Source: a virus
Virus record (IMG/VR): IMGVR_UViG_3300042924_000569
Coordinates: 1-34,501 of that record
DNA: 34,501 bases
Direction: 5' to 3' (one strand)
Within the stretch, counting starts at the first letter, position 1. Every line of letters starts with the position of its first letter. A program made the translations under genes and the position numbers. Under the pieces are notes generated by a model. That model ran no database searches, was not told the DNA's origin, and was given only the letters and a program-made list of their open reading frames with translations. Below are positions 145-26,147 of the stretch, piece after piece.

Positions 145-175
145 CAAATATGTTTCCTCTTTTTGATAGTACAAA
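145..175 (-). promoter_or_regulatory. Candidate promoter for the methyltransferase unit
   Basis: On the minus strand TTTG (175-172) is followed after 19 nt by CATATTTG (152-145). This differs by one base from the Bacteroidota -7 box TANNTTTG and has the usual spacing. The methyltransferase start codon lies at 122, which leaves a short leader. The -33 box falls inside the palindromic operator-like site at 165-188. One -7 mismatch makes this less certain than the promoter at 26117-26147. Confidence 0.5.
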
Positions 176-188
176 ATATTTTACTAAC
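165..188. promoter_or_regulatory. Operator-like palindrome, copy 1, with possible plus-strand promoter
   Basis: GATAGTA, ten bases, TACTAAC: a member of the four-copy palindrome family also seen at 4053-4076, 4966-4989 and 26121-26144. Here the flanks fit a promoter pointing the other way: on the plus strand TTTG (162-165), 19 nt, TAACTTTT (185-192), one mismatch from consensus. A transcript from it would be antisense to the replication genes at 184-1486. The left edge overlaps the stop codon region of the gene ending at 184. Confidence 0.55.
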
Positions 189-801
189 TTTTTTCCACAT
201 TTTTTTGCATGTAGGTTTTCATGGCATCTCTCATTGAATCTTTGTCTACATCAGTACTCATCCTGTTGCTGTCACCAAATGCCTTGTACTGTGAATTCTG
301 CTCATCTTTAAACCTCATGTATTCCTGGTGTCTTTCATTCCTGTACTGTTCTAGCATCTCAAAGAATGTGGGCATATCCATACGATCATACACTTTGCCA
401 TACTTGAATTTTACCATACCATCCAAAAACAGCATGATGTCCTCAAATGCTAGCTGATCCTCATTTGCACTGTCAATCAGTTGCAGGGATAGTTCTAGCA
501 CCTGGTCAGCATTCATACCCACCCTTAAATTGAAATTGGCTAGTGTTTTTTGGATTGCTTTTGCCAGGATAGCTGATACCTTGTCAATACCATAGGTTTG
601 TACTAAGCCAGGCAGTCTGTCCTTTACTGGGATATTCTCAATCACTTTCATAGGCAGTGGTGATCCTTTCTCTTTCCATCTGCACATTTCATTGTAAACC
701 TGACCTGTACTACCTACCGCCAAAGCGTTTAGCAAATGCCTCGTGTAATTGTTGGTCTGTGATATGGCTAGCTCTTGTTTGTTGTGTTTTTGTAGTTCCA
801 T
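184..801 (-). CDS. Hypothetical protein downstream of the replication initiator (possible replication partner)
   Basis: A 205 aa soluble, helix-rich protein without a signal peptide. It overlaps the end of the replication initiator gene by 92 bp in another frame, so the two are probably translated together. No Walker motif is visible, so it is not an ordinary DnaC-type helicase loader, although its position is where such a loader is often found. The central part (FEDIMLFLDGMVKFKYGKVYDRMDM begins near residue 118; shown only as its key run FKYGKVYDRMDMPTFFEML) resembles a small conserved family of Bacteroidota phages and prophages whose function I do not know. The C-terminal 50 residues are charged and probably coiled. 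ATG at 801 is the only good start. Confidence 0.8.
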   Translation of the reverse strand: MELQKHNKQELAISQTNNYTRHLLNALAVGSTGQVYNEMCRWKEKGSPLPMKVIENIPVKDRLPGLVQTYGIDKVSAILAKAIQKTLANFNLRVGMNADQVLELSLQLIDSANEDQLAFEDIMLFLDGMVKFKYGKVYDRMDMPTFFEMLEQYRNERHQEYMRFKDEQNSQYKAFGDSNRMSTDVDKDSMRDAMKTYMQKNVEKS

Positions 802-1486
802 TGTTTTCAGTTTTTAGTTCAAAAAATCCTTTCCATCCTTTTGCCATTGATTGCTGTATGATCAGGCAGGCATTTTGCTCAATACCATTTGCCAGCTTGA
901 CCAGTTCATTCAAACTGGCTTGCTCAGATCCTGATGACTTGAATTTGAATTTGTGTTCTTTGGCTTTGTAGTCTTTCCATATTTCCCAGTAACTCATGAA
1001 CTGGGCAGATGTGAATGGGTAGGTGATTTCAATTTTTGGCTTTTTCACCTTATCCTTATCCTTATCCATTTCCTTATCCATTACCATATCCTTATCCTTA
1101 TCCATATCCATAGCCCCATTTAAGGGGCTTGCAAGGGGCTTGGACTGGTCAATTTGATTTTTGTATTTTTCCAAAATTTTTATGATTCCTACATGTGCCT
1201 TATTATTTGCACTCAGTCCTGATGGATATTGAAATTCAACAAATGATGGTATATACCATTTTGATCCCCCATCAATAGGAATAACTTTGTCACTAAAAAA
1301 TTCTAGTGCTTTTTGCTCGTTTAATTTTTCGCCTACTCTGATCTGTGCTACATCCATGTCCACCTGCCAAATTCCAGCATAATCACAGTCATCACAGATG
1401 TAAAGCCAAAGCAGCTTGTATGGGGCTTGTAAGCCCCTTATAAAAGGCTTTTTCCATTTTTCAGTATCAGTGAATCTTTTTGCCAT
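710..1486 (-). CDS. Replication initiator-like protein (phage replisome organizer type)
   Basis: A 258 aa protein with two folded parts joined by a charged linker. Residues 1-100 (start MAKRFTDTEKWKKPF, with LLWLYICDDCDYAGIW) look like the winged-helix N-terminal domain of phage replisome organizer proteins. Residues about 128-150 are a low-complexity Met-Asp-Lys linker encoded by a hexamer DNA repeat. The C-terminal part resembles the helical domains of DnaD-like proteins. It probably recognises the origin and recruits the helicase. I chose ATG at 1486 rather than an upstream in-frame codon because translation from 1522 would read through a hairpin followed by a U-tract. The gene lies downstream of the SSB-like and recombination genes, which supports a replication role. 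The family call is from general pattern only. Confidence 0.75.
   Translation of the reverse strand: MAKRFTDTEKWKKPFIRGLQAPYKLLWLYICDDCDYAGIWQVDMDVAQIRVGEKLNEQKALEFFSDKVIPIDGGSKWYIPSFVEFQYPSGLSANNKAHVGIIKILEKYKNQIDQSKPLASPLNGAMDMDKDKDMVMDKEMDKDKDKVKKPKIEITYPFTSAQFMSYWEIWKDYKAKEHKFKFKSSGSEQASLNELVKLANGIEQNACLIIQQSMAKGWKGFFELKTENNGTTKTQQTRASHITDQQLHEAFAKRFGGR
1050..1115. repeat. Hexamer tandem array inside the replication initiator gene (candidate origin iterons)
   Basis: Eleven consecutive 6-bp units: TTATCC occurs exactly at 1050, 1056, 1062, 1074, 1092 and 1098, and variants (ATTTCC, ATTACC, ATATCC twice, ATAGCC) fill the other slots without phase breaks. It encodes the Met-Asp-Lys linker. 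TTATCC is also the core of a DnaA box, but none of the units continues to TTATCCACA. Placement between the two protein domains recalls the origin inside lambda gene O; the function is inferred. Confidence 0.85.
1112..1141. repeat. AGCCCC/GGGGCT inverted repeat plus AAGGGGCTT direct repeat
   Basis: AGCCCC (1112-1117), ATTTAA, GGGGCT (1124-1129) form an inverted repeat. AAGGGGCTT at 1122-1130 is repeated at 1133-1141, 11 bp apart, about one helical turn. The elements directly adjoin the hexamer array. They stand out as GC-rich islands in AT-rich DNA and may be protein-binding sites of an origin. Confidence 0.75.
1422..1437. repeat. GGGGCTT-GT-AAGCCCC inverted repeat
   Basis: A 7-bp perfect inverted repeat with a 2-bp centre near the 5' end of the replication initiator coding sequence. 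It contains the same GGGGCTT element as the repeats at 1112-1141. It may be a binding site, or may simply be coding coincidence. Confidence 0.6.
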
Positions 1487-1500
1487 AATAAAATAAAAAA

Positions 1501-1579
1501 GCCCCAGTGCTGTGGATCGCAAAGGGGCAGGTTTTTAATCACCTAATAAACTCATTTAGATCATCCACTATCTAAATGA
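1501..1579 (-). ncRNA. Replication-gene leader RNA with two hairpins and complementary loops
   Basis: On the minus-strand transcript, bases 1579-1552 form a perfect 10-bp stem with an 8-nt loop AGUGGAUG. Bases 1528-1501 form GCCCC/GGGGC, a UU/CU internal loop, UGC/GCA and an 8-nt loop GAUCCACA. The loop centres GUGGAU and AUCCAC are fully complementary, so the hairpins could form a 6-bp kissing complex. Hairpin 2 is followed by U6 and then AUUUUAUU before the initiator start codon at 1486, so it also has the shape of an intrinsic terminator or attenuator. Predicted by eye only. Confidence 0.6.
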
Positions 1580-1588
1580 ATTGTTTTT

Positions 1589-1619
1589 CAAATATGAATC
1601 AATATTCTGAAACTAAAAA
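1589..1619 (-). promoter_or_regulatory. Candidate promoter of the replication initiator gene
   Basis: The -7 box CATATTTG (1596-1589) matches TANNTTTG at all but the first base and is identical to the box proposed before the methyltransferase. Nineteen nt upstream is TTTT instead of TTTG. If used, transcription would start near 1582, so hairpin 1 (1579-1552) would sit at the very 5' end of the RNA. The weak -33 box keeps confidence low. Confidence 0.35.
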
Positions 1620-1626
1620 ATATTTT

Positions 1627-1893
1627 TTAATCAATATGGCTAGCTTTCCAAAAATTGACAGTCCTACCAGTTTCAAAGTCTTTCCCCCTAAATGCTGTTT
1701 CTATTAGCCCTGCATCCATTAGTTCACCTCGCCTGGGTGTAACCCTATTTATAGGCCAGGATAGATGCTCTGAGATCTGATGATCATTGCAGATACCTAG
1801 ATGCTGGATGGCATACAAAACTCTTTTTTGCTTTTCATTTATGTTAGTCATTGCCTCAAAATAGGCAGGTAAACTTGTTTTAAAATCGTACAT
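1627..1893 (-). CDS. Winged helix-turn-helix protein
   Basis: An 88 aa protein with a MarR-like winged-helix pattern. Residues about 18-60 read as recognition and wing segments (EKQKRVLYAIQHLG, then a helix with DHQISEHLSW, then RRGELMDAGLIE). Such small proteins are common in phage replication regions and act as local transcription or replication regulators, or help replication-complex assembly. It starts one base after the stop codon of the preceding gene (TAA then ATG), so it is translationally coupled. A 140-bp leader with two hairpins follows it. Its DNA target is unknown; the operator palindromes are one possibility. Confidence 0.75.
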   Translation of the reverse strand: MYDFKTSLPAYFEAMTNINEKQKRVLYAIQHLGICNDHQISEHLSWPINRVTPRRGELMDAGLIETAFRGKDFETGRTVNFWKASHID

Positions 1894-2082
1894 TTAGATG
1901 TCTAGTTTAATGGTGATGTAATATGAATCATCAGTACCTACTTTTGATATAGCCATAAATTCATTTAGATGTACAGATCTTTGCCATTTACTATAAAAGG
2001 CCTTTTCTCTGATCATCTTATCATTTTTAAAAAGATAAATTATTCCTCTTATCTGATCACATTTAAGTCCGTATTGTTTCAT
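1894..2082 (-). CDS. Hypothetical protein, 62 aa
   Basis: A short basic protein that I do not recognise. It has no membrane segment and no clear motif, and looks like a small alpha/beta domain (CDQIRGIIYLFKNDKMIREK, then a C-terminal strand YYITIKLDI). It is the first gene after the hairpin at 2096-2120 and is immediately followed by the winged-helix gene. ATG at 2082 has an AT-rich upstream region and no Shine-Dalgarno sequence. Confidence 0.65.
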   Translation of the reverse strand: MKQYGLKCDQIRGIIYLFKNDKMIREKAFYSKWQRSVHLNEFMAISKVGTDDSYYITIKLDI

Positions 2083-2095
2083 TTATAACATATTA

Positions 2096-2120
2096 AAGCC
2101 CAGTGTATTAGACTGGGCTT
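2096..2120 (-). terminator. Intergenic hairpin after the SSB-like gene (weak terminator)
   Basis: AAGCCCAGT and ACTGGGCTT form a perfect 9-bp stem with a 7-nt loop. On the minus strand only UUUAAUAU follows, so it may stop transcription partially or protect the 3' end. The arm and loop start, AAGCCCAGTCTAA, recurs in the terminator at 25871-25897. Confidence 0.6.
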
Positions 2121-2126
2121 ATTAAA

Positions 2127-2420
2127 TTAAAATGGTAGGTCACCATCAATGATTTCGGCATCCTGTACTGATGTATTAGGTGCAGATTTTTTTGTAGGTG
2201 CATCACCAGTTTTTTGCTCAGGCTTATAAGTATCTAATGTGACAGCCACATCTTTGCCGTATTGATTAGGCTCTGCATACACATTGATGTCTACTTTTAC
2301 ATACTTTTTGCCATTGTACTCAAATGCATGCTGCATAGCATCACTGATACAGATAGATGCTTTAAGCCATGATTCATTTTTCTTTTTACCGTTTCCTAAA
2401 CGGATTTTGTCATTTGCCAT
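2127..2420 (-). CDS. Single-stranded DNA-binding-like protein with SSB-type C-terminal tip
   Basis: A 97 aa protein. Residues 1-68 form a compact beta-rich domain that could be a reduced OB fold (SWLKASICISDAM, then KKYVKVDINVYAE, then DVAVTLDTYKP). Residues 69-90 are a flexible linker. The last residues GDLPF match the acidic-hydrophobic tip (DDIPF type) by which SSB proteins recruit repair and replication partners. It lies two genes downstream of the ERF annealing protein, a typical place for an SSB. The domain itself is not a standard SSB that I recognise, so the call rests mainly on the tip and context. Confidence 0.65.
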   Translation of the reverse strand: MANDKIRLGNGKKKNESWLKASICISDAMQHAFEYNGKKYVKVDINVYAEPNQYGKDVAVTLDTYKPEQKTGDAPTKKSAPNTSVQDAEIIDGDLPF

Positions 2421-2432
2421 GTTATTGGGTTT

Positions 2433-2873
2433 TTATTTTGGAATTTGAATTTTGAATGTCACTGTACTAGATTTGACAGGTAGATCACCTTTATTATAGG
2501 TTTTCTCATGATCCTCAATAGCTTTCTTTTTTTCGGTCAGTTCAGCTATCTGCTGATCTAATTCTGACCATCCAGGTAGATGGCTGTAGTCATACTTTAT
2601 GCTGGTCATCTCTGATACTGAAACACCATTGATCTCAGCCTTTTGCTTTGGATGCTTGTACAATTCATCTAGTACATCAGTGCTGATTTTCTCTTTTACC
2701 ATCTTAACAAAGGTTTCCATTGCATTTAACCTGATCACAGCATCTAGTGCATTCACATTGCCATCTCTGACCTGTTCTGCCACTGTCTCAGCCATTAGAT
2801 CAAGGCCAAATTTAGTGGGGGCAATTTCCCCCACCTTTATTTCATCCAATTTAGTTAGCTTTTCTGATTGCAT
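2433..2873 (-). CDS. Hypothetical protein between ERF and SSB-like genes
   Basis: A 146 aa, mostly helical protein. Residues about 99-120 (LDQQIAELTEKKKAIEDHE) form a short coiled coil, followed by a beta-like tail rich in Thr, Val and Lys. It overlaps the end of the ERF gene by 23 bp and is followed 12 bp later by the SSB-like gene, so it belongs to the same recombination operon. Similar proteins accompany ERF or RecT genes in Bacteroidota phages; a role as an exonuclease partner or recombination accessory is only a guess. No catalytic motif is visible. Confidence 0.7.
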   Translation of the reverse strand: MQSEKLTKLDEIKVGEIAPTKFGLDLMAETVAEQVRDGNVNALDAVIRLNAMETFVKMVKEKISTDVLDELYKHPKQKAEINGVSVSEMTSIKYDYSHLPGWSELDQQIAELTEKKKAIEDHEKTYNKGDLPVKSSTVTFKIQIPK

Positions 2874-3501
2874 CTTTTTTAGTTGTAAAGTGTGACTTAA
2901 TATTGTTTTCCTCTACTATCTTACTATTCATGTGATACAGACTATTTAACTGTCCAATTGTTTCGCATGTATCTAATACCATCAAAACATCATCAGCATT
3001 GGTGTAGGCTTTCCTAGTTAAGATGTCAATCTCAGATAACTCAGCTGGCTTTTGCATAGCTTTTGGCTTAGGTGCTACCTCATGGGTGTCATATTCTGTG
3101 TCCAGCTTTTCCTCTGTAGGAATCAGAAACATCTGCATCAGGGCATATTTTAAAGCAGTAGACATGGCCTTATTTGTAGACTTATCTCCGCTATCCATTG
3201 CCTCACCCTCAAGTACTGATTCGATAAATGATCCATCTGTAGTGAAAAACTTGAATTGACATTTAGCTATGGTGTAAATAAGTACACCGCCTTTTGCTGT
3301 CTGTCTTTCCTCTCTTTTACTTTCTAGCACATTGCTAGTGATGAATACTGAATGCTTTTTAAATAATGGCTGTAAAGCATTGTACATGTCATCAATGCCT
3401 CTGAACTTATAGCCCTGCATTGAATTGGTTTTGCTTTTAGCAATAGCCTCAATTTCCTGCATGATAGCATTGACTGCCTGGTAAATGTTTGGAGTAGTCA
3501 T
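2851..3501 (-). CDS. ERF-family single-strand annealing recombinase
   Basis: A 216 aa protein. Residues about 5-130 carry the ERF pattern: an N-terminal helix ending in QGYKFRGIDDMYNALQPLF, a beta-strand region with the residue run LIYTIAKCQFKF, and the conserved GEAMDSGDKSTNKAMSTALKY block (key residues G, D, S, K, T, A, K). ERF proteins coat single-stranded DNA and anneal complementary strands during phage recombination and circularisation. The C-terminal 90 residues are variable and lysine rich. I prefer ATG at 3501, five bases after the upstream stop; ATG at 3519 is possible. The SSB-like gene downstream fits this pathway. Confidence 0.88.
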   Translation of the reverse strand: MTTPNIYQAVNAIMQEIEAIAKSKTNSMQGYKFRGIDDMYNALQPLFKKHSVFITSNVLESKREERQTAKGGVLIYTIAKCQFKFFTTDGSFIESVLEGEAMDSGDKSTNKAMSTALKYALMQMFLIPTEEKLDTEYDTHEVAPKPKAMQKPAELSEIDILTRKAYTNADDVLMVLDTCETIGQLNSLYHMNSKIVEENNIKSHFTTKKDAIRKAN

Positions 3502-3505
3502 GGTC

Positions 3506-3706
3506 TTAATTGTTTTCATTGTTTTCAAAATTATTAGGTAATATAGTAGATCTTACATATCCAGCTTTCTTAAATCCTTTCAGCATTGATTGTACATTCA
3601 TTACTGCTATGGGGCTGTAGATCATAGCATCTACTAACTCACCCAGTAATTGATGTCTTTCCTGTGGCACTAATTCGCACCAGGTAGGCAGTTTATCCTC
3701 TTTCAT
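3506..3706 (-). CDS. Hypothetical protein, 66 aa
   Basis: A small protein that begins inside the end of the preceding gene (14-bp overlap) and ends just before the ERF start. The core is helical (LPTWCELVPQERHQLLGELVD, MIYSPIAVMNVQSMLKGF) and may be a small helical DNA- or protein-binding domain, but I do not recognise the family. The C-terminus is Asn-rich. Confidence 0.65.
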   Translation of the reverse strand: MKEDKLPTWCELVPQERHQLLGELVDAMIYSPIAVMNVQSMLKGFKKAGYVRSTILPNNFENNENN

Positions 3707-4028
3707 ATTCTGATGTTATTTCGTTAATTGAATCAATGATGCCCTTAAATGGATTGACAAAGTGGATCACAATAAATTCGTAGATGTCTTTATTGATTTG
3801 CTTTGCAGACATTTCCCAATATTGGCTGATATTGTATCTGCCTGTTTCCTGGCAGTGATCACCATTGTGATCTGACCAGTCATGTACCCAGTCAAGCCTG
3901 TCAGTACGGTCAAGCCATTTTTCAAATCTGTTTAGTGGAATGTGGCATCTGTTACAATCAAGATCCACAGTCAAAATGTTCGTGTCTTGATCTCTGTTAA
4001 AGTCAAGTACTGTAAATAATTGTTTCAT
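3693..4028 (-). CDS. Hypothetical protein, first gene of the recombination operon
   Basis: A 111 aa acidic protein with many aromatic and histidine residues (RFEKWLDRTDRLDWVHDW, SDHNGDHCQETGRY). A metal site formed by the His/Cys/Asp cluster at residues about 50-60 is conceivable but unproven. I chose ATG at 4028 over the longer GTG start at 4049 because the latter lies within the -7 region of the promoter at 4049-4079. It is the first gene of the operon that runs through ERF to the SSB-like gene. Confidence 0.7.
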   Translation of the reverse strand: MKQLFTVLDFNRDQDTNILTVDLDCNRCHIPLNRFEKWLDRTDRLDWVHDWSDHNGDHCQETGRYNISQYWEMSAKQINKDIYEFIVIHFVNPFKGIIDSINEITSEYERG

Positions 4029-4048
4029 AGTAGTGTGTTTTTGTAGCA

Positions 4049-4079
4049 CTAAGATAGTAAAACATTTTGTACTACCAAA
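4049..4079 (-). promoter_or_regulatory. Promoter with embedded operator, copy 2 (recombination operon)
   Basis: On the minus strand TTTG (4079-4076), 19 nt, TATCTTAG (4056-4049), one mismatch from TANNTTTG. The palindrome GATAGTA-N10-TACTACC occupies 4053-4076, so a bound regulator would cover both boxes. The predicted start of transcription is about 15 nt before the ATG at 4028. Confidence 0.75.
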
Positions 4080-4097
4080 GTTTTTTTATACTTTTTT

Positions 4098-4298
4098 TTA
4101 GAATTCTACACTAGACAATTCCTTGCCTAGTTTTGCTGCACACTTTTTCATGTGCTTTTTTTCCTCAATAGTGAAATCAATAGGCTTTTTATTGCCATCA
4201 AATCCCCTCAATTTGTGGTAGTAGTTAGTGATTCCTGTGCAATATTTAGTAAAAAATTGCTTTGCTGGTACGATCTTAAAAAATTCCTCTTTTGTCAT
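4098..4298 (-). CDS. Small DUF5053-like protein, candidate DNA-binding regulator
   Basis: A 66 aa basic protein. The segment with ITNYYHKLRGFDGNKKPIDF followed by TIEEKKHMKKCAAKLGKEL resembles small Bacteroidota proteins (recalled as DUF5053) with a helix-turn-helix-like pattern. It overlaps the previous gene by ATGA and ends 19 bp before the operator promoter at 4049-4079. With its neighbour at 4295-4561 it is a candidate for the factor that recognises the phage palindromes. The family recall was not checked. Confidence 0.7.
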   Translation of the reverse strand: MTKEEFFKIVPAKQFFTKYCTGITNYYHKLRGFDGNKKPIDFTIEEKKHMKKCAAKLGKELSSVEF

Positions 4299-4561
4299 AT
4301 ACTAAACGGTTTGTAAGTTTCTACATCAAATGTATCACTTTTTGAAATTGGTTTTGGTTTTGCTTTGTTTATCCTGGGTGGCAGATAGTCCATTTTCCTA
4401 CAGTACACATCCACATCCATGTATTTAATTTTTAATACTTTTGACATCCTCTCAATGTTTTCGTATTGCCAATTGTCATCAATGTACATTCGTTCTGTCT
4501 TAGATAATGTCTTAAATGCTTTGCCTTTTGGCATCTCTGCCAGTCTTATAAATTCTGCCAT
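4295..4561 (-). CDS. Hypothetical protein with possible helix-turn-helix
   Basis: An 88 aa basic protein. Residues about 18-55 show a helix pattern compatible with a helix-turn-helix (LSKTERMYIDDNW, then IERMSKVLKIKYMDVDVYCRK). The C-terminal 30 residues are Lys/Pro-rich and probably disordered. The start has the context TAACCTATG seen before two other early genes. It is coupled to the next gene by ATGA. A regulatory role is inferred from the fold pattern and from its place between two operator promoters. Confidence 0.65.
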   Translation of the reverse strand: MAEFIRLAEMPKGKAFKTLSKTERMYIDDNWQYENIERMSKVLKIKYMDVDVYCRKMDYLPPRINKAKPKPISKSDTFDVETYKPFSI

Positions 4562-4572
4562 AGGTTATTAGT

Positions 4573-4830
4573 TTATAAAGTAATTTGATAACCCCCTACA
4601 TGTTTATAGCATGGGTGACTTTGTAGTTGTTTCTCCACCTGCTCCCTAGTCCATTCCTTTCTAAAATTCTCAGATGGTTTGCCGTTTTTGATTTCAGCAA
4701 TAATGCAGGTAGCACCCTTATCCTCTACTACTATCCAAAATTCAGGATCGTATGATCTTCGGCTAGTCATGCTCATTCCCCATGCACTAATAAAAAACTG
4801 TCTGTTCTCTAATGTGGTGACTTGTATCAT
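4573..4830 (-). CDS. Hypothetical protein, 85 aa
   Basis: An unrecognised alpha/beta protein containing aromatic residues (QFFISAWGMSM, DPEFWIVVEDKG) and a helix with EWTREQVEKQLQ. No signal or membrane segment. I prefer ATG at 4830, whose upstream context (AACACTATG) is like the other genes of this region; an in-frame ATG at 4863 would add 11 residues and overlap the 31 aa gene before it. It belongs to the short operon started by the promoter at 4962-4992. Confidence 0.65.
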   Translation of the reverse strand: MIQVTTLENRQFFISAWGMSMTSRRSYDPEFWIVVEDKGATCIIAEIKNGKPSENFRKEWTREQVEKQLQSHPCYKHVGGYQITL

Positions 4831-4846
4831 AGTGTTTTTGTTTTGG

Positions 4847-4942
4847 TTATCTAAAATAATCATCTTGTAATAGTGCTAATGCAATAAAGCATACCACAAT
4901 AATAATGACAGATTCCAGGTTTGTTTTGCTTTCTTTTTTCAT
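4847..4942 (-). CDS. 31 aa single-span membrane peptide
   Basis: A short ORF, first after the operator-controlled promoter. The peptide has a charged N-terminus (MKKESKTNLES), one hydrophobic span (VIIIVVCFIALALL) and a short acidic tail (QDDYFR). The spacing from promoter to ATG (23 nt from the operator) equals that of the other operator promoters, which supports real translation. It may act at the host inner membrane, for example in exclusion or host takeover; the function is unknown. Confidence 0.6.
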   Translation of the reverse strand: MKKESKTNLESVIIIVVCFIALALLQDDYFR

Positions 4943-4961
4943 AGTTTATTTGTTTAGGGCA

Positions 4962-4992
4962 TAAAGATAGTAAATAATGTTATACTACCAAA
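4962..4992 (-). promoter_or_regulatory. Promoter with embedded operator, copy 3 (small regulatory operon)
   Basis: On the minus strand TTTG (4992-4989), 19 nt, TATCTTTA (4969-4962), one mismatch from TANNTTTG. The palindrome GATAGTA-N10-TACTACC covers 4966-4989. It lies 20 bp after the terminator at 5012-5042, so it restarts transcription for the genes at 4942-4098. Confidence 0.78.
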
Positions 4993-5011
4993 TATTTGTC
5001 CATTTTTTTAT

Positions 5012-5042
5012 AAAAAAAAAGCCCACTGTAGAAACAGCAGGC
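5012..5042 (-). terminator. Intrinsic terminator after the metallopeptidase gene
   Basis: A 9-bp stem with two G-U pairs and a 4-nt loop (5021-5042), followed on the minus strand by nine U (5020-5012). It closes the operon that ends at 5062 and insulates the operator promoter just downstream. Confidence 0.85.
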
Positions 5043-5061
5043 CGTACCACACTATGAAAAA

Positions 5062-5649
5062 CTATATCTTTTCCTCTCTGAATATTTGTTCTATATGCTT
5101 AGGCAGCACTGTGTAATCATTGTCAAAATGATTAGGCATCACATCCATCAGCCTCTTATTCCGATATGGGCTGTTCTTTTCAGTACACCACTTTTTGCTG
5201 ATTACCATCCAGTTATAAAAATAAATGTAGGTATTAGCCTTTTTTATATATTGCTTTTTATCTATAGGTAGCTTGAATTTTTTTATTAATGACACCGATC
5301 TGATCTCATTGTCCAATTCTAGATCCCTGCAAAGCCCCATGTACTTTTTTAAATTCCGTACCTTTTTACCCTCTAGCATGTCATTAAACTTAATATAAGC
5401 CTCACCATCCATGGCATTTGTCCAGGCAGTACATTTGTCAGCCCATTGTGTAAAGTGAGCAAATTCATGCACTAGAATCTCAAGGGAATCAGGTCTATTC
5501 ATAGCACATGCTAGCACTGGCACAGATTCATCAAAATACCCTGCACACTTATTCCTAGCATCCATTTTCAGGTACTTTGTGTTTCTTAGTTCACACTTCA
5601 CATCAAATGTTTTGCATGTATTTTTTACATGCTGGACAAAATCTATCAT
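5062..5649 (-). CDS. Zinc metallopeptidase-like protein with HEFAH motif
   Basis: A 195 aa protein. Residues 61-65 are HEFAH, an HExxH zinc-binding and catalytic motif on a helix (LEILVHEFAHFTQWAD). The later segment LELDNEIRS near residue 112 contains a possible third acidic ligand, as in gluzincin-type enzymes. There is no signal peptide, so it probably acts in the cytoplasm. Phage and mobile-element ImmA/IrrE-like peptidases with this motif cut repressors, but this protein lacks the rest of that family's usual pattern as far as I can see. It may process a phage or host regulator. It is coupled to the preceding gene by ATGA and followed by a strong terminator. Confidence 0.7.
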   Translation of the reverse strand: MIDFVQHVKNTCKTFDVKCELRNTKYLKMDARNKCAGYFDESVPVLACAMNRPDSLEILVHEFAHFTQWADKCTAWTNAMDGEAYIKFNDMLEGKKVRNLKKYMGLCRDLELDNEIRSVSLIKKFKLPIDKKQYIKKANTYIYFYNWMVISKKWCTEKNSPYRNKRLMDVMPNHFDNDYTVLPKHIEQIFREEKI

Positions 5650-5837
5650 GCTGGATCTTTTAGGATTGCCTCATCAGGTCTGTCTATCTCAGGGATAGTC
5701 ACTCTTTGCCCCCCTCTTACAGTAGCTAATAGTTTCCTCACTTCATCTACCTCTGCTGTCAATTCCTGGTACTTATTTACCAGTAAGATTTCCTGCTGTG
5801 CTGCTGTCATTTTGTTCCAATTTTTAGGCATTTTCAT
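5646..5837 (-). CDS. Hypothetical protein, 63 aa
   Basis: A small protein with a helical N-terminal half (AAQQEILLVNKYQELTAEVDEV) and a Pro/Asp-rich tail. No known family. The longer reading would begin with TTG at 5843; ATG at 5837 or 5831 is more likely. It overlaps the DUF3310-like gene before it by 14 bp and the metallopeptidase gene after it by 4 bp, so all three are co-translated. Confidence 0.65.
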   Translation of the reverse strand: MKMPKNWNKMTAAQQEILLVNKYQELTAEVDEVRKLLATVRGGQRVTIPEIDRPDEAILKDPA

Positions 5838-6036
5838 ATTCAAACTGTATTAATAGATCTATATAATGTTTAGCTTTTTTTAAATCCTCAATCCCATTTT
5901 TATCTTTATGCCTCATCACATACTTGATGATATTACCCTCAATGAATGGCACATTGTTAGCATAGATAAACTCAGTAGGCTGAATTTTAAATTTTGAATA
6001 ATGGCCACCGCCTATCTGTGTTTCACTTGCTTTCAT
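5824..6036 (-). CDS. DUF3310-like protein
   Basis: A 70 aa protein matching the DUF3310 pattern almost throughout: GGGHYSKFKIQPTEFIYAN, then EGNIIKYVMRHKDKNG and the helix EDLKKAKHYIDLLI. The family is common in tailed phages, sometimes labelled nucleotide kinase-like, but no enzymatic activity is firmly established and there is no P-loop here. It follows the phosphoesterase gene directly. Confidence 0.88.
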   Translation of the reverse strand: MKASETQIGGGHYSKFKIQPTEFIYANNVPFIEGNIIKYVMRHKDKNGIEDLKKAKHYIDLLIQFEYENA

Positions 6037-6900: not shown

Positions 6901-6932
6901 AGGTAGTAAATTTATAAAGCCGTCAACCGTAT

Positions 6933-7439: not shown

Positions 7440-7629
7440 CTTTCTTAAATTTTTCTATAATTGTGACACCTAGCACTGCTGCTGAATACCACAAAAATCC
7501 CTCAAATACGAACTGTTTAGTATTAGGCATGTAACCCAATACAATAGCATTTATAAAGGCTGATATGCCAGCGAATCTTTTGCTAGATACCAACCCACTA
7601 TCCGATAGTAAATGCTTTAAGAATTGCAT
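7393..7629 (-). CDS. Holin candidate
   Basis: A 78 aa protein with two hydrophobic stretches (residues about 18-34 and 43-58) separated by a short loop, and a charged tail (KKDERPKDTREDS). Size, topology and position immediately before an endolysin fit a small holin that permeabilises the inner membrane. It overlaps the spanin candidate upstream by 32 bp. The family was not identified by name. Confidence 0.68.
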   Translation of the reverse strand: MQFLKHLLSDSGLVSSKRFAGISAFINAIVLGYMPNTKQFVFEGFLWYSAAVLGVTIIEKFKKDERPKDTREDSITTS

Positions 7630-8307: not shown

Positions 8308-8310
8308 GTC

Positions 8311-9086: not shown

Positions 9087-9089
9087 TAT

Positions 9090-11671: not shown

Positions 11672-12133
11672 TTATGCTGGGTATTGGTACTGAGTAGGAA
11701 TCACACATCTATCTGATGTAAATGGTAACTCTAAGCTGATGTCAGCCTTTATAGCTATCAAATTGTCAGGTGTGTCCTCAGTTATAAAAGTCAATGATAC
11801 GTTTTCACTCATCTCAAATTCAAATTCCTGATACAATAATTGAGCAATGATGTCCTGTGTCACACTTAGCATGTCACTCAAAGCCTCAGTCTCATTGATT
11901 TTTTCAGGTAGCATTCTGTCAAAAAAATACAAGCTGAAATTCAGTGTAAGTGTCCTGGTGGAGATATTTGCATTCGTAGAATCAAAGTACATAGCAGGAT
12001 AGACATTGTCTGCACTTTCCCCTAGAAACTCATCAAAGTCACCGTAGTAAACAGTGTTAATTTGCTGATGTGCCTCTGCTATTGCTTTTATTTGACTTAC
12101 GACCTGATTTAAGGTAAGTGTTCTTGCTGCCAT
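11672..12133 (-). CDS. Tail completion / neck-like protein
   Basis: A 153 aa protein with an N-terminal helix (LNQVVSQIKAIAEAH), a beta segment with YPAMYFDS, and a pattern (LTLNFSLYFFDRM, EALSDMLSVTQDII) like phage tail terminator or completion proteins that cap the tail tube at the neck. The location after the connector gene and before the fibre gene fits. It shares one base (TAATG) with the GIY-YIG gene upstream. Sequence identity with a named family was not tested. Confidence 0.6.
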   Translation of the reverse strand: MAARTLTLNQVVSQIKAIAEAHQQINTVYYGDFDEFLGESADNVYPAMYFDSTNANISTRTLTLNFSLYFFDRMLPEKINETEALSDMLSVTQDIIAQLLYQEFEFEMSENVSLTFITEDTPDNLIAIKADISLELPFTSDRCVIPTQYQYPA

Positions 12134-12702
12134 TATGCGTAAATTAAGTGTGTGTTATTTTTTACAATACCTAAAAGTTTTGCATTTAGGAGTGATCTTT
12201 TTATACCGTTTGCCTCAGCTGCATTTTTTATACAGCTATAATATATCCCATATCCTGTATGTAAAACAATTCTAGCCTGTGGATGTTGGCCTCCGCCATA
12301 TTTACCAACTCTAGCATCCTTAAACTTTTGTATAGTTTCGGGTGTGTACTTTCTTTTTTTAGCTATTTGAGAAAACTTTTCTCTTATTTCAGCAGAATAG
12401 AAAGCAGGTAATTCACCAGCCTTTGGCAAAATCAAATTAAGGCCACCATAATCTGATAGGCTTTTAAGTTTATTTCCATAGTAGCGTTCCATTTCTAGTC
12501 GAACAAATGGGCAGCATTCATGTATGATTTCAAATTGATGGTTATTTACATCATGTTTCATAAATGACCTGTGCAATAGAGTTTGCTTTGGTGCTTTAGT
12601 ACAACGATAGAATCTAAATCTTTGCTTAATGTCAGCAGAAGATCCCACATAAATCCTACCAGTAGGTGATGTTATTTTATATACTCCGCTTTTTTTCGGC
12701 AT
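12133..12702 (-). CDS. GIY-YIG homing endonuclease
   Basis: A 189 aa protein. The catalytic domain begins with SGVYKITSPTGRIYVGSSAD (GVY at 6-8, YVG at 18-20) and includes Arg residues near 30 and Glu in VRLEMERYYG near 78. The rest contains NUMOD-like DNA-binding segments: FSQIAKKRKYTPETIQKFKDA and, at the end, a helix block with SCIKNAAEANGIKRSLL. This is the layout of free-standing phage homing enzymes that nick or cut at a specific site and spread by repair. It interrupts the connector/tail-completion gene run and overlaps small genes at both ends. Confidence 0.9.
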   Translation of the reverse strand: MPKKSGVYKITSPTGRIYVGSSADIKQRFRFYRCTKAPKQTLLHRSFMKHDVNNHQFEIIHECCPFVRLEMERYYGNKLKSLSDYGGLNLILPKAGELPAFYSAEIREKFSQIAKKRKYTPETIQKFKDARVGKYGGGQHPQARIVLHTGYGIYYSCIKNAAEANGIKRSLLNAKLLGIVKNNTHLIYA

Positions 12703-18157: not shown

Positions 18158-18181
18158 TCACACTTATTCTCATTCACTATT

Positions 18182-18817: not shown

Positions 18818-18827
18818 GTCTATTGTT

Positions 18828-21122: not shown

Positions 21123-21123
21123 G

Positions 21124-23220
21124 TTACTCGTATGTTAATTCAATTACTTTTAAAAATTCCGCTTTCGTAGTGTCCACATCCATAGGGTTAAAATCTTGTA
21201 CATTGTTTAGTCTCCACAAAGCCCCATCAATCATGATCAGCTTTGAAAAGTCTAAACTGTATATGTCTTTTGCTTTCAGGTAGACAAATGCAGTCAGTAG
21301 TTTGCTGTCCTTATCTGTGATCTCTGCCACATATTCAGACCAGTATGCATTGAACAGGTTTGCTGTTGGATAGTCTGTATTCAATTCAAAATATAATTCA
21401 TTCGGCACTCCAAAGTTCAAATCTGCACCTGGATTGTTTGGATCATCTAGGTGACCAGCATATCCATAAGTAGTCAAACTTACCAATGTTGTACTACCAT
21501 TTTTTACATTATAGGATGTTACCCCTGTAATTTTCTTAGCCTGCATAATTCTGATCACATGCTCTGTGCTATCCTCAACCCCATTATTTTGTTTATAAAT
21601 AGTAGGTACTACTTTGTCCTCACCTGTATATCCCACTAATGGTGATGGTGCAAAGATGACCTCTGCTGTTTGTTTGTCCTTAGCAAAATCATATCCGCTA
21701 TCCTCTAGCTTTGTGCCGTATGATTCCGAAAACTTTTTTTGATATTGCTCATTATAATAATCAGAATCATTTTTATATTTAAACTCAAAGTATCTACCAT
21801 TTAGTTCACTCATTGGTTTTAACTTCAAAGGCTTTGATCTATCCACCTTATATGTCCAGTCTAGATATTGTATAGTGCCATCCGATAGCAATAGATGATC
21901 TGTATCGTTTACATTAAGTAAGCTATTGAAATCATCAATGGCTAATAGTGATTGGCCATCAAAATCGTAAAATTCAATATAGGGCTTAATGATTAAATGC
22001 TTAGGCCTATTTGTGTCCTCTACCACATACATGTTAAACATCTTGACAATAGATGAAAAAAAGTCTCTTTGGAATACCCCCTTAGGAATTACATCAGCCA
22101 TAATCAATCTGTCATTCAATGTCACCTGGGCTGTCACAAATGAATTTGAATAGAATGACACCTGCCCATCACTTACCGTCACAGGTGGATCATCTCTATT
22201 AGGTGCTGTATTGCTAAATCTGAAAGTGATAGCATCATTTGTATTGACTAGGATTTCAAATGTGCCTGCTATGCCTATTCCACCCTCGAAATTATATTGA
22301 TAGACTGTAGTCCCATTTTTAGCTATTTTGAAAGTACCACTAGTAGAATCACCATTAAACTCGTAGTCCATTTTTAAGATAATAGAACTTACACCTGTGT
22401 ATGTGAATGTGCTATTAGTCCCTGATACTGTCAAACCTGATCCTGTCACAGTGTCGAATGATATTAATCTAGATGATACAATCTCTACAGGTGTAGTCAA
22501 AAATGCTTTATTAAAATCACTGGTAGTTTTAGTTAGTGCCTTTTGATTTTGTGGAACTATCAATCTACGAAACACAGGGCTGTTAAAAAAAGAACTTTCA
22601 TATGTATATCCTGAATTGCTTATAATCTTATCAATGTATTCTCTTACATACAAAGCTGGCCTGTATGCTCTTACATCCCAGTCATGTTTATTTGTGCTTA
22701 CCTTACCATAGTCAATCAATGGGTAGTAATACCCTGATCCTGCTACTGTATTCCATGATGATTGTATGTTTGTCAAAGTCCAGTCATGATCATAGGCTGA
22801 AAAATCAAGTTCCTCTATTTTCTTATTCCCTAATTCGTTTATAAACCCACCCAGCTCACCGAATACAGCACATTCATATTCTATTGCTCCATTGTCTATA
22901 ACTATCTCTAATATCCTTAAGATTCCCTTAAAGATCTGCACCTTGTCAATGAATACTATACAGCTTGCTGCCTTAGATACATTAAAATTGTACCCCACAT
23001 TCGGCACATTTTCATCATGAAAATTTGATGATCCGAACTCAAAGATGTGGCCAAATAACTTATTGTTAACAGCGTTACCTGGTAATACAATAGTCTTTGA
23101 AAAGTTTGTATTCCTAGATGCAAAGTCCTTAATGTCATCAATGTTATAAGTGAATTCAGTGGATAAATCCTTTGTAAGATCTAGCCTCTGATTCTCTATG
23201 TATATCTCTGTACTTATCAT
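21124..23220 (-). CDS. Large tail/baseplate structural protein
   Basis: A 698 aa, beta-rich protein. Its opening (STEIYIENQRLDLTKDLSTEF, then RNTNFSKTIVLPGN) is typical of a minor tail protein family seen with tape measures in Bacteroidota phages. It continues with long strand-rich segments and may be a baseplate hub or distal-tail component. It is coupled by ATGA to the gene before it and lies 1 bp upstream of the tape measure. No enzyme motif is seen. Confidence 0.7.
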   Translation of the reverse strand: MISTEIYIENQRLDLTKDLSTEFTYNIDDIKDFASRNTNFSKTIVLPGNAVNNKLFGHIFEFGSSNFHDENVPNVGYNFNVSKAASCIVFIDKVQIFKGILRILEIVIDNGAIEYECAVFGELGGFINELGNKKIEELDFSAYDHDWTLTNIQSSWNTVAGSGYYYPLIDYGKVSTNKHDWDVRAYRPALYVREYIDKIISNSGYTYESSFFNSPVFRRLIVPQNQKALTKTTSDFNKAFLTTPVEIVSSRLISFDTVTGSGLTVSGTNSTFTYTGVSSIILKMDYEFNGDSTSGTFKIAKNGTTVYQYNFEGGIGIAGTFEILVNTNDAITFRFSNTAPNRDDPPVTVSDGQVSFYSNSFVTAQVTLNDRLIMADVIPKGVFQRDFFSSIVKMFNMYVVEDTNRPKHLIIKPYIEFYDFDGQSLLAIDDFNSLLNVNDTDHLLLSDGTIQYLDWTYKVDRSKPLKLKPMSELNGRYFEFKYKNDSDYYNEQYQKKFSESYGTKLEDSGYDFAKDKQTAEVIFAPSPLVGYTGEDKVVPTIYKQNNGVEDSTEHVIRIMQAKKITGVTSYNVKNGSTTLVSLTTYGYAGHLDDPNNPGADLNFGVPNELYFELNTDYPTANLFNAYWSEYVAEITDKDSKLLTAFVYLKAKDIYSLDFSKLIMIDGALWRLNNVQDFNPMDVDTTKAEFLKVIELTYE

Positions 23221-24392
23221 TTATATTGACTATTGATTTTTTCTGCAAATTCAATGCTTAACTCAAAGTTGAACATCTTGTCTGCTATTCTATTTTTATC
23301 TGACCAGCTGTTAGTTTTAACTCCCACAGGATAGTAGTACCCACCTTGCTCATAGTAAACCTCAGGGCTAGTGATAAGATCTTTCATCCATAAATAGTCA
23401 GTCTGATTAATATAGTCACTCATTAATTTGAAAGAAACTGTCTCATTTGCTGAAAACGTATTATTGCCAGCATTAATCCTTTTGTATGAATCATACCTGC
23501 TCATTGCTCCACTATTGTACTGCCATCCTAATTGACTATAAGATTTTTTCTCGACAGATGATTCCTGCCTGTTCACTAATCTGAACACAAAGCTGTCATA
23601 TCCCCCTAGCTTATTAAGGAAATGCAATGTTACTGGTGTCCATCTAGGGTTGCATGTTAGCTTGATCTTAAACTCAGCAGACTGATTGCCACCATAATTA
23701 ACTTTAATACCATACTGATAAGTAGATGCAGTGATAAATGATTCACCTAGATAGGTATTGATTGCACCAGGTGATAAATCAAATAGTACAAATGCACTAC
23801 AAATCACTGATGATCCTGTGGATGCTGTGCCATCTGTACTGCCACCGTTTAAATATTTTTGTACTGTCAAAGTCAGGTTTGTAGTAGTGCCTGCTGTATT
23901 CATCCACCCTGCATAAAGTTTTTCACCCATTTGTACCTCAGCCACACTAATATCTCTGGGTGTTAGCCAGGTATTAATCTTAGGCTGATAGTAAGATGTA
24001 CTAAAATCCCTGAATGGTGGATTGACAAAGTTAAATGCTTTATAAGATCCTGATGCCAGGTTAGTGTATGTAGTGCCATCATATTCCTCACCAAATCTTA
24101 TACTGTAGCTTACATACAAATCATTCCCTGTGTATGAAAATGCAGTTTGTGTAGTATTAGGTTTGAAATATCCTGCAATATAGTCTCTGATGATTCCACC
24201 TGCATTGAATATTCCCTTTGTAGTCGTAGGATCAGGGAATAGTTTTATCCTTGATACTATGACATTGTCTATCAATACATCAAATACAAATTTGAATCCC
24301 ACCTGGGAGATATTATCTGATGTCACCACAAAGTAAAGGTCATCATGTGCGGATGGGTAGTTTTCAGGTGTGCTATTGATTGTAATTGCCAT
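23217..24392 (-). CDS. Tail structural protein
   Basis: A 391 aa protein made of beta-rich domains, with many aromatic residues (YNSGAMSRYDSYKRINAG, EVYYEQGGYYYPVGV) and a final helix (KMFNFELSIEFAEK). No signal peptide. It is coupled to both neighbours by stop-start overlaps, in a run of tail genes, so a distal tail or baseplate role is likely. The family is not one that I can name. Confidence 0.68.
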   Translation of the reverse strand: MAITINSTPENYPSAHDDLYFVVTSDNISQVGFKFVFDVLIDNVIVSRIKLFPDPTTTKGIFNAGGIIRDYIAGYFKPNTTQTAFSYTGNDLYVSYSIRFGEEYDGTTYTNLASGSYKAFNFVNPPFRDFSTSYYQPKINTWLTPRDISVAEVQMGEKLYAGWMNTAGTTTNLTLTVQKYLNGGSTDGTASTGSSVICSAFVLFDLSPGAINTYLGESFITASTYQYGIKVNYGGNQSAEFKIKLTCNPRWTPVTLHFLNKLGGYDSFVFRLVNRQESSVEKKSYSQLGWQYNSGAMSRYDSYKRINAGNNTFSANETVSFKLMSDYINQTDYLWMKDLITSPEVYYEQGGYYYPVGVKTNSWSDKNRIADKMFNFELSIEFAEKINSQYK

Positions 24393-25105
24393 TATTTTTT
24401 ATTGTTAGTTTCGTTAATTTGTTTATTTATTTGTCTTATATAGACTTTTATGTCCTGTCCTACTGTCTTACTGATTGCATCTACAAAGCCTTTGCCGAAG
24501 CTGAAATCTACAGCAGTGTCAAAGAATTTAGATTTTTTAATACCCTTTTTCTTTATTCCTATAGCCACAGCCATTGCTAGTGACTTAGCACTATCAGCAG
24601 CATTAATTTGTTTTAATATCCTTTTATTTTTCCTTTGTGTAGCAGTTAGCTTTTTTGTTTGATCCTCTCTCCTAGCTGCATTGCCTCGTTTCCTAAGCCA
24701 CAGCATGATGCTTTTCTGCATCTTAGCTGACACAATCAAATTCTTAAATGAATAGGGGCTATTCGGCTGTCCACTTTCTACACCTCTCACCCCTTTGTTC
24801 ACAAAATCGTAGTACTTAGATGCAGGATCAGTATTTTTATACCCTAAGTCAATTTCATATCCACCATCTCCCTCAATCAATTCACCGCTAGTGATGCCAT
24901 CCTCTAAATTTCCGCTACTTACTTTCCCCAGTCTTTGCAGTTCCTCTTTTACCTTTTGGATGAATGATACTGCCGATAGAATGATGATTTGCTTAGTAGA
25001 TGGCAATTGATTCAGATCAGCATAGCTATTCCTATCATTCCCTAGTTTATCAAGGAATCCATTGTTCACAATTTCATTCTGTAGATTCTTAGCTGACTTT
25101 GCCAT
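24392..25105 (-). CDS. Hypothetical virion protein (HK97 gp10-like possibility)
   Basis: A 237 aa basic protein. The segment IQKVKEELQRLGKVSSGNLEDGI followed by GYEIDLGYKNTDPASKYYDFVNKGV has the ordering of HK97 gp10-type tail-completion proteins (helix, 'S/T-G-N/R-L' turn, strand, then a Y..FV..G loop). The C-terminal part is very lysine-rich. It starts inside the end of the frameshift extension, so it is tightly coupled. The role is inferred from pattern and location. Confidence 0.6.
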   Translation of the reverse strand: MAKSAKNLQNEIVNNGFLDKLGNDRNSYADLNQLPSTKQIIILSAVSFIQKVKEELQRLGKVSSGNLEDGITSGELIEGDGGYEIDLGYKNTDPASKYYDFVNKGVRGVESGQPNSPYSFKNLIVSAKMQKSIMLWLRKRGNAARREDQTKKLTATQRKNKRILKQINAADSAKSLAMAVAIGIKKKGIKKSKFFDTAVDFSFGKGFVDAISKTVGQDIKVYIRQINKQINETNNKK

Positions 25106-25373
25106 ACGTTTTTCTTAATTGCTCTTTTTCATGCTCCCCTTTGGATTTCAAATATGCCAGGTCATTTAGGAATTCAATAGTTTTAAGGCTATATACTTGT
25201 TCAAGCCTGATGCTTTCATGTTCAGCGACCAGCCTGGCTTGATAAATCCAGCCGTAATTTCGCATAAATGGATGTACAGTTTCTCTGCCTGATACTTCGT
25301 CATGCCCCCCTTGATCATCTCCGCTATCAAATAGTCCTTTGAATTCCTTATCCAATTGCTGTATACTTGATAA
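25089..25373 (-). CDS. Frameshift extension of the tail assembly chaperone (GT-like)
   Basis: This reading frame is open from the T9 run at 25380-25372 to the stop at 25089 and has no ATG near its beginning. A -1 slip on T-TTT-TTT (25379-25373) would join the first 162 residues of the upstream protein to 94 residues from this frame, giving a 256 aa product. The extension includes HPFMRNYGWIYQARLVAEHE and a charged helix (LKSKGEHEKEQLRKTYG). In lambda and many siphophages, tail assembly chaperones are made as such a short/long pair next to the tape measure region. An independent TTG start at 25355 is less likely. Confidence 0.7.
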   Translation of the reverse strand, partial: LSSIQQLDKEFKGLFDSGDDQGGHDEVSGRETVHPFMRNYGWIYQARLVAEHESIRLEQVYSLKTIEFLNDLAYLKSKGEHEKEQLRKTYGKVS

Positions 25374-25858
25374 AAAAAAACAACCGATCCCAAAACATTC
25401 ACAATTGGTGCAGCTAGCATATCATCAGCATATTCAGAATGCTTTGATGCATCATACTTATCATCTACCCATCTGCCTATCCAGTTTCTTTTTTGTGGCA
25501 TCACCATACATGCAGCAAGTTTGTGTAGGTTTCCATTAGTATCATCTGAAAAGTATTTTGCTTCAATGTACCTGGCTGCTGGCATTTTCCTGATGTCATA
25601 GATACACCTGTATCTTTTGCCATTTACTTTGATGTACTTTGCAGGGCTAGGTTTGATTTCCTTATGTAAAAAGGTAATCTGCTCCAATAAAGGTTTTAGC
25701 TTATCAATAGGCAGACTGTCTATCTGATGCTCAGTTAAATCCATCACAATAGCTGCAGCTTTTACAGCCATGTCTAGTTCAGTCATGCCCTCAGTACCTT
25801 TTGTGAATAGATCAGTGATCTGCTGCCACTGAAATACGTTAATGTCTTTCCATGTCAT
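25166..25858 (-). CDS. Tail assembly chaperone (short, G-like form)
   Basis: A 230 aa protein with an N-terminal helical domain (DINVFQWQQITDLFTKG) and residues KAAAIVMDLTEHQIDSL reminiscent of phage tail chaperones, followed by the beta segment KYIKVNGKRYRCIYDI. The last part continues in frame after the slippery T run. It starts after an AAGGA sequence 3 nt before ATG, one of few clear Shine-Dalgarno sites here. Chaperones of this type bind the tape measure during tail assembly. It is the first gene of the tail operon, after a terminator. Confidence 0.72.
   Translation of the reverse strand: MTWKDINVFQWQQITDLFTKGTEGMTELDMAVKAAAIVMDLTEHQIDSLPIDKLKPLLEQITFLHKEIKPSPAKYIKVNGKRYRCIYDIRKMPAARYIEAKYFSDDTNGNLHKLAACMVMPQKRNWIGRWVDDKYDASKHSEYADDMLAAPIVNVLGSVVFFYQVYSNWIRNSKDYLIAEMIKGGMTKYQAEKLYIHLCEITAGFIKPGWSLNMKASGLNKYIALKLLNS
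25373..25379 (-). promoter_or_regulatory. Predicted -1 ribosomal frameshift site
   Basis: On the minus strand the heptamer T TTT TTT is in the phase X XXY YYZ relative to the chaperone frame (codons V160, F161, F162), within a nine-T run. The -1 frame is open for 94 codons after it. No downstream stem-loop was modelled. Confidence 0.68.
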
Positions 25859-25870
25859 ATCCTTAAATAG

Positions 25871-25897
25871 AAAAACCCAGCTGTTTAGACTGGGCTT
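25871..25897 (-). terminator. Terminator between the 53 aa gene and the tail operon
   Basis: On the minus strand AAGCCCAG pairs with CTGGGTTT (with one G-U), with a 9-nt loop, followed by U's. It shares AAGCCCAGTCTAA with the hairpin at 2096-2120. It lies 36 bp after the 53 aa gene and 13 bp before the chaperone start. Confidence 0.75.
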
Positions 25898-25933
25898 TCT
25901 CGATTATAAATTCTATCGGATGATTTTGTTTAT

Positions 25934-26095
25934 TTAAAATTCATATACAATAGATGCATCATATATGATATTATCTTGTTTTGTCTCATTTATCCCACCG
26001 CCAATAACAGGCTGTTCAAAAATTACTAATACTTTATTAGTAAAATTTAAGGTAGATACTGTAATAATCTCAATGTCAGATTTTGTATTTGTCAT
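25934..26095 (-). CDS. 53 aa hypothetical protein in an autonomous unit
   Basis: A small soluble protein (MTNTKSDIEIITVSTLNFTN; later VLVIFEQPVIGGGI and DNIIYDASIVYEF) with a strand-rich pattern; I do not recognise it. The gene has its own promoter (26117-26147, with the operator palindrome) and its own terminator (25871-25897), and sits between terminase and tail genes. I chose ATG at 26095, because a TTG start at 26119 would lie within the -7 box. Expression control shared with early genes suggests an accessory, host-directed or regulatory product. Confidence 0.68.
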   Translation of the reverse strand: MTNTKSDIEIITVSTLNFTNKVLVIFEQPVIGGGINETKQDNIIYDASIVYEF

Positions 26096-26116
26096 AGTTT
26101 TTGTGTTTTGATAGAT

Positions 26117-26147
26117 CAAAGATAGTAAAACATATTATACTACCAAA
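26117..26147 (-). promoter_or_regulatory. Consensus promoter with embedded operator, copy 4
   Basis: On the minus strand TTTG (26147-26144), 19 nt, TATCTTTG (26124-26117) match the Bacteroidota promoter TTTG/TANNTTTG perfectly. The palindrome GATAGTA-N10-TACTACC occupies 26121-26144, between and overlapping both boxes. It drives the 53 aa gene and is the best single promoter in the window. Confidence 0.85.

Follow-up and report, generated by a model that had tools for sequence, protein, structure and literature searches.

Small phage repressors with palindromic operators, such as Cro and CI, represent a well-known way of working. Bacteroidota promoters usually have a spacing of 19 to 20 nucleotides (nt) between their two boxes, and the control of transcription in phages of this phylum is a poorly described field. 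For the non-canonical LexA of Bacteroidetes, the motifs GGA-N5-TCC, CTAA-N5-TTAG and TTAC-N5-GTAA have been reported (PMC8565304). Here we describe a palindrome, GATAGTA-N10-TACTANC, which occurs at four places in a viral DNA of 34,501 nt (IMG/VR record IMGVR_UViG_3300042924_000569, positions 1 to 34,501; this whole stretch is referred to as the window). Sequence comparison points, with good confidence, to this palindrome being the operator of a phage-encoded global regulator, a DUF5053 protein of 66 amino acids (aa) encoded at 4098-4298, which would act as a repressor.

The preliminary description of this DNA had placed four palindromes at 165-188, 4053-4076, 4966-4989 and 26121-26144, and all 4 were recovered there with 0 mismatches. 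Exactly 4 copies of the core, TAGTA-N10-TACTA, were present in 34.5 kb, against a first-order Markov expectation of 0.04. All 4 were intergenic, as had been claimed, though intergenic DNA made up 4.4% of the window. When up to 3 mismatches were allowed, GATAGTA-N10-TACTANC gave 27 matches versus 10.7 expected, and 0 of 100 shuffles gave 27. A scan for equally good matches inside genes found none, the closest (31244-31267) having 1 mismatch. The sites, designated operators A to D, and their promoters were as follows.

Operator A, 4966..4989, minus strand, GGTAGTATAACATTATTTACTATC, upstream of the operon encoding DUF5053
Promoter of operator A, 4962..4992, minus strand, TTTG-N19-TATCTTTA, read 4992-4962
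Operator B, 4053..4076, minus strand, GGTAGTACAAAATGTTTTACTATC, upstream of the ERF recombination/replication operon
Promoter of operator B, 4049..4079, minus strand, TTTG-N19-TATCTTAG, read 4079-4049
Operator C, 165..188, minus strand, GTTAGTAAAATATTTTGTACTATC, upstream of the C5 DNA methyltransferase/VRR-NUC/sigma-like/terminase operon
Promoter of operator C, 145..175, minus strand, TTTG-N19-CATATTTG, 1 mismatch, read 175-145
Operator D, 26121..26144, minus strand, GGTAGTATAATATGTTTTACTATC, preceding the 53-aa gene between terL and the structural gene that follows
Promoter of operator D, 26117..26147, minus strand, TTTG-N19-TATCTTTG, perfect consensus, read 26147-26117

A promoter of the Bacteroidota type (TTTG, 19 to 20 nt, TANNTTTG) was present with 0 or 1 mismatches at each of A, B, C and D. 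On the minus strand A, B and D were embedded in TTTG-GTAGTA-N10-TAC-TATCTTNN, which is a promoter of this type with 19 nt between its boxes, the first G of the palindrome being the G of TTTG and the right arm extending into the -7 box. It had been proposed that the palindrome lies exactly between the boxes at these three sites; the TTTG and the 19-nt spacer were confirmed, but the palindrome overlaps both boxes. Promoter A lay directly downstream of a hairpin at 5043-5020 that resembles a terminator. Site C had been taken as promoterless, which proved incorrect: the -33 TTTG lies within the right half of the palindrome and is followed by 19 nt and CATATTTG, so that operator C, which also overlaps the stop codon of a 205-aa gene, covers the -33 box. 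The dyad centre at C was 32 base pairs (bp) before the end of the -7 box, compared to 16 bp at A, B and D. A search of coding-strand intergenic DNA for TTTG-N19/20-TANNTTTG with up to 1 mismatch detected only A to D and two offset readings of the D region. As all four of these near-consensus promoters contain the palindrome, every recognizable promoter of the phage carries the operator.

Conservation was examined in nine relatives with a terL at least 91% identical to that of the window. Each relative whose contig spans these places kept the palindromes at A, B and C with at most 1 core mismatch, and operator C was retained in 9 of 9 relatives. The outer bases of the palindrome varied (GG, GC, GA, GT or AT) and the spacer at A was 19 or 20 nt. 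Across the 10 genomes the dyad centre was at -16 in all sites A and B of the clade, as in D of the window, and at -32 or -33 in every C site. In a subset of the relatives the boxes of site C were degenerate, with TTTT replacing TTTG and CAAATTTG replacing TANNTTTG, yet the palindrome stayed, which argues for an operator distinct from an extended promoter motif. Loss of the palindrome with retention of the boxes would have spoken against a shared module; the reverse was seen, with the palindrome present at three orthologous promoters and the boxes degenerate at C. Site D and its 53-aa gene occurred in the window only, and G025 and L023 carried extra sites of their own near terL.

The protein that goes with the site was sought by comparing distributions, and the candidate that emerged lies between operators A and B.

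DUF5053 (PF16476) protein, 66 aa, 4098..4298, minus strand, proposed DNA-binding regulator

The PF16476 match of this protein scored 28.7 bits against a curated Pfam cut-off of 26.6 (E=1e-6), and its gene was present in all relatives whose contig covers its region. Over whole records, exact sites were detected in 8 of 10 records with DUF5053 and in 1 of 10 terL relatives without it, while a reversed control pattern was found 0 times in all 20. Homologues of DUF5053 in other IMG/VR phages were divergent (54 to 76% identity), and these, down to those of only 54 to 62% identity, also had TAGTA-N10-TACTA, or a sequence one mismatch off, in a nearby promoter. A motif scan of 85k species, made before DUF5053 was considered, reached a Muribaculaceae locus (L105) in which the site is 261 bp upstream of a DUF5053 gene. 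No such intergenic site was found with ERF relatives of 46 to 61% identity (L209-L219). Unrelated phages with 1 or 2 exact sites each (L010, L016, L115 and L117/L119) had been picked by pattern match and were not counted as support. The idea that one phage protein presides over a shared operator-promoter module is supported by these comparative data.

PF16476 was detected in 16 of 151 Bacteroidaceae and 21 of 119 Muribaculaceae genomes, often as several adjacent copies, and gave one marginal match among 198 genomes drawn across the phylum. Most of the Bacteroidaceae and Muribaculaceae genes had a TTTG-TANNTTTG promoter ~200 to 300 bp upstream, followed by an open reading frame (ORF) of 39 to 65 aa that varied by unit; the upstream promoter was found at 35 of 48 DUF5053 loci. 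Symmetry was then measured without reference to any motif, as the number of complementary pairs in 24 bases around each centre, in these 35 promoters and 276 control promoters. Only centre -16, the same centre as at sites A, B and D of the window, stood out, with 6.8 of 12 pairs compared to 3.81 in controls (p=9e-13). Half-sites varied by subfamily and included TAGTA..TACTA, TACTA..TAGTA, TAATA..TATTA and ACATA..TATGT, among others. When right arms were exchanged between sites, pairs dropped from 6.8 to 5.51 over all sites (p=5e-5) and from 6.57 to 5.04 in 14 dissimilar sites (p=1e-4; p=1.5e-4 without the TAGTA site); the covarying pairs joined positions 5-10 with 15-20. This loss of symmetry on exchange indicated true inverted repeats, every element having a sequence of its own. 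Among gut phages, relatives of the Muribaculaceae protein came with GATAGTAAC-GAAATA-GTTACTATC and close variants. In temperate phages of Porphyromonas gingivalis, a DUF5053 gene (E=1e-31, 108.8 bits; annotated as hypothetical) was preceded at a distance of 235 bp by TATAGTACGAAAATTCGTACTATA, and these phages encoded a separate CI-like repressor nearby. Overall, palindromes were found over the promoters of the DUF5053 gene's own operon and of other phage operons, at A to D in the window and as a dyad across the family, and such comparisons suggest that the PF16476 proteins of Bacteroidota phages and prophages are autoregulators, every one having an operator of its own at a fixed promoter position.

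Several further features of the family loci were observed. Three Muribaculaceae contigs (G388:C22, G472:C1 and G414:C35) contained three to five DUF5053 paralogues side by side, and in G472 and G388, where promoters were read, every paralogue came with a separate operator, an arrangement that suggests prophage units stacked or in competition. A strong Shine-Dalgarno sequence (AAAGGAGGTG) was present on the small ORF ahead of DUF5053 in L229, L253, L256, L257, L266 and L307; a passage of PMC6847099 describes such sequences as mostly missing in the phylum. In L190 and L191, adjacent palindromes, TTAGTACGAAAAAAGATACTAA and TAATACGAATAAAAGTATTA, lay ~260 to 295 bp upstream of DUF5053 and are possibly two operators in tandem.

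The genes of note in the window, all on the minus strand, included the following in addition to DUF5053.

4845..4940, minus strand, first gene of the A operon, 31-aa hydrophobic peptide (sequence reading)
4295..4561, minus strand, 88-aa protein of the A operon, weak NinE match
2851..3528, minus strand, ERF-family single-strand annealing protein of the B operon (PF04404, E=2.5e-21; phrog_155)
1627..1893, winged helix-turn-helix (HTH) protein, phrog_1123 match, looks HTH-like
33567..34496, minus strand, C5 cytosine DNA methyltransferase, first gene of the C operon (sequence reading)
32533..33234, minus strand, sigma-factor-like protein of the C operon (phrog_1190, E=0.007)
25934..26095, minus strand, 53-aa gene behind operator D, found in the window and not in the relatives compared

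A direct terminal repeat of 127 bp (1-127 and 34375-34501) places site 165-188 ~42 bp upstream of the methyltransferase gene, the complete copy of which is at 34496-33567, and makes it probable that the contig represents a complete genome, assembled from a molecule that was circular or circularly permuted. Terminal repeats were also present in relatives (127 bp in G025 and G030, 99 bp in G027) and are probably the assembly k-mer of circular genomes. Among the ten genomes, only the window had the C5 methyltransferase, inserted between operator C and the VRR-NUC gene, and its position behind this operator predicts that it is now under the operator's control. The sigma-factor-like protein resembled sigma-70 (TIGR02937, E=0.02), was kept in the clade and in terL relatives of 66 to 70% identity, and is possibly a diverged sigma factor with which the phage transcribes its late genes. 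A GIY-YIG-like gene at 12133-12702 (sequence reading), not found in any relative compared, is likely to be a homing-type insertion among structural genes. The first 25 kb of the window had no match among named phages by megablast.

The arrangement of sites and operons suggested a mechanism, in which binding, dimerization, repression rather than activation, and timing are all predictions. DUF5053 would be made from the operon behind operator A, and a dimer would sit on each operator, each subunit taking one half-site that contains TAGTA. The dyad lies between and over the -33 and -7 boxes at A, B and D, and over the -33 box at C, and the dimer would cover the RNA polymerase contact region of the four promoters and block the host polymerase. 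As DUF5053 built up, it would act much like Cro of lambda, exerting negative feedback on its own operon and shutting off the 53-aa gene, the ERF recombination/replication operon and the methyltransferase/nuclease/sigma-like/terminase operon. Since the operators overlie the polymerase contact region of near-consensus promoters, including that of the regulator itself, they would be best read as sites of steric repression with negative feedback.

Structure prediction was applied to the candidate regulator. An AlphaFold2 model of the 66 residues (predicted local distance difference test [pLDDT], 93.6; predicted template modelling score [pTM], 0.74) was confident and compact, with helices at 3-9, 12-18, 26-31 and 44-62. 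In this model helices 2 and 3 could form an HTH, and a conserved loop, DGNKKPIDF, follows the second and third helices. The model of the Muribaculaceae homologue (pLDDT, 75) had a similar helix order. The fold search returned one good viral match, which was another phage protein and probably a homologue. A search of PDB sequences with the DUF5053 profile gave nothing below E=0.15, and a Pfam search of the protein gave no HTH family at E up to 5.

Some observations weigh against an autoregulatory role of DUF5053 at these sites. Foldseek and VIA-align 2 detected no matching PDB structure for either model (the best VIA-align 2 Z score, 3.1 to H-NOX chains, was not meaningful), and the DNA-binding fold is a prediction. 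A group of ~38-kb phages (L006, L013-L015, L017 and L020-L022) had one exact promoter-palindrome and no detectable DUF5053. No promoter matching the regular expression was found within 340 bp at 13 of the 48 DUF5053 loci, some of which are at contig ends. Most Bacteroidales DUF5053 genes were second in their operon, behind a small helical ORF that could contribute. Similarity of proteins and of operators was positively correlated (Mantel r=0.39) but confounded by common descent. As to the ~38-kb lineage itself, its members share one TTTGGTAGTA-N10-TACTATCTTT promoter ahead of differing first genes, and the operon encodes a different small HTH-like protein (MYSTLFNQTPHNNYKLAQILNVS...); this lineage may represent a separate case, or a chance occurrence multiplied by common descent.

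The alternative that survives best, though it is unlikely, is that DUF5053 is the cognate protein but an activator that works in the manner of MerR from a palindrome in the spacer between the boxes. The dyad between boxes with a 19- to 20-nt spacer at A, B and D would suit such activation. The boxes are near consensus and the spacer is normal for Bacteroidota, however, which leaves no defect needing correction; operator C, over the -33 box and in another register, fits occlusion better, and no similarity to MerR was found.

It is very improbable that a Bacteroidota host transcription factor binds the sites and that the phage adopted host operators. In a genome scan, tRNA genes of Parabacteroides, Bacteroides and Alistipes did prove to be preceded by the same promoter-palindrome; the four full matches (L107, L108, L109 and L111), all at tRNA genes, were judged to be chance given the number of promoters. 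There was one close match per genome, and we estimate the number of matches to be about chance for a phylum full of TTTG-N19-TANNTTTG promoters. Furthermore, DUF5053 paralogues within one genome differed in operator (L247 and L262 of G472), and the sites tracked DUF5053 rather than host group; different operators in one host and sites that follow DUF5053 across hosts both make a host factor unlikely. A host regulon was rejected, as the scan gave ten matches, mostly single promoters or within genes, and only the Muribaculaceae match precedes DUF5053. A host SOS operator was likewise rejected, as the TAGTA-N10-TACTA sites differ from the LexA motifs of PMC8565304.

Slightly less probable again is regulation by another small protein, either one of those at 4295-4561 and 1627-1893 or the small ORF ahead of DUF5053 in Bacteroidales. 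The preliminary description had offered three candidates, those at 4098-4298, 4295-4561 and 1627-1893, of which only the first, DUF5053, fits the distribution of sites. The NinE match of the 88-aa protein and the HTH-like look of the phrog_1123 protein spoke for these two, and small ORFs do stand ahead of most Bacteroidales DUF5053 genes. The 88-aa protein was rejected because it is absent from G025, G495 and G499-G502, all of which have sites, and the winged-HTH protein because it is absent from the site-bearing G499-G502 and present in the site-less G505. The small ORFs were unrelated between units and were missing in L186, L187 and L299.

We give little credence to the palindrome being a promoter element read by the sigma-like protein at 32533-33234. 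This protein is conserved in the clade and its gene is within the C operon, but it was present in five site-less records (G505-G509) and not found in the site-bearing G499-G502, and was rejected as the reader of the site. In addition, the dyad moves 16 bp relative to the -7 box at C, a shift not expected of a promoter element, and twofold symmetry is unexpected for a sigma factor element. Least credible of all is a mere extended promoter consensus or chance resemblance: the right arm does coincide in part with the start of the -7 box, but control promoters lack the symmetry at this centre, the arms covary, the register differs at C with the palindrome conserved, and shuffles never reached the observed count. 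Within the reach of sequence analysis, the control promoters, the covariation and the register refute this reading.

Repression by DUF5053 is the preferred reading, and it extends to a wider proposal, held with middling confidence. DUF5053 would be an unrecognized family of DNA-binding autoregulators, with a fold absent from solved structures, in phages, prophages and possibly other mobile elements of Bacteroidota; paralogues would read different half-sites at a fixed position, and one member would govern every recognizable promoter of the present phage. A search of one full-text library found no paper mentioning DUF5053 or PF16476, and three things appear to be new: the protein family, its association with this operator, and the constant place of the operator in mobile elements throughout Bacteroidota. 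The proposal offers a testable role for a Pfam family that has been without a known function, with both the protein and its DNA target named. A fixed operator position with changing half-sites would let protein-DNA specificity be derived from sequence and, if true, would provide a natural set of orthogonal repressor-operator pairs that could serve the engineering of Bacteroides and its relatives.

Compared to known systems, the sites resemble those of the MerR family in having a palindrome in the spacer between two promoter boxes, but DUF5053 lacks sequence similarity to that family, the spacer is normal for the phylum and operator C is in another register. The non-canonical LexA of Bacteroidetes (S24 family, SOS regulon) shares palindromic operators in Bacteroidota promoters and a likeness to phage repressors, whereas no S24 peptidase family was found in DUF5053. 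Unlike lambda Cro, to which no relation was detectable by sequence or fold search, DUF5053 goes with a single operator at each promoter; the core is 5-N10-5 and is placed within a TTTG/TANNTTTG promoter of the Bacteroidota type. As with Cro, a small phage protein is associated with near-identical palindromic operators that overlap the polymerase site at its own and other phage promoters, and negative feedback is likely.

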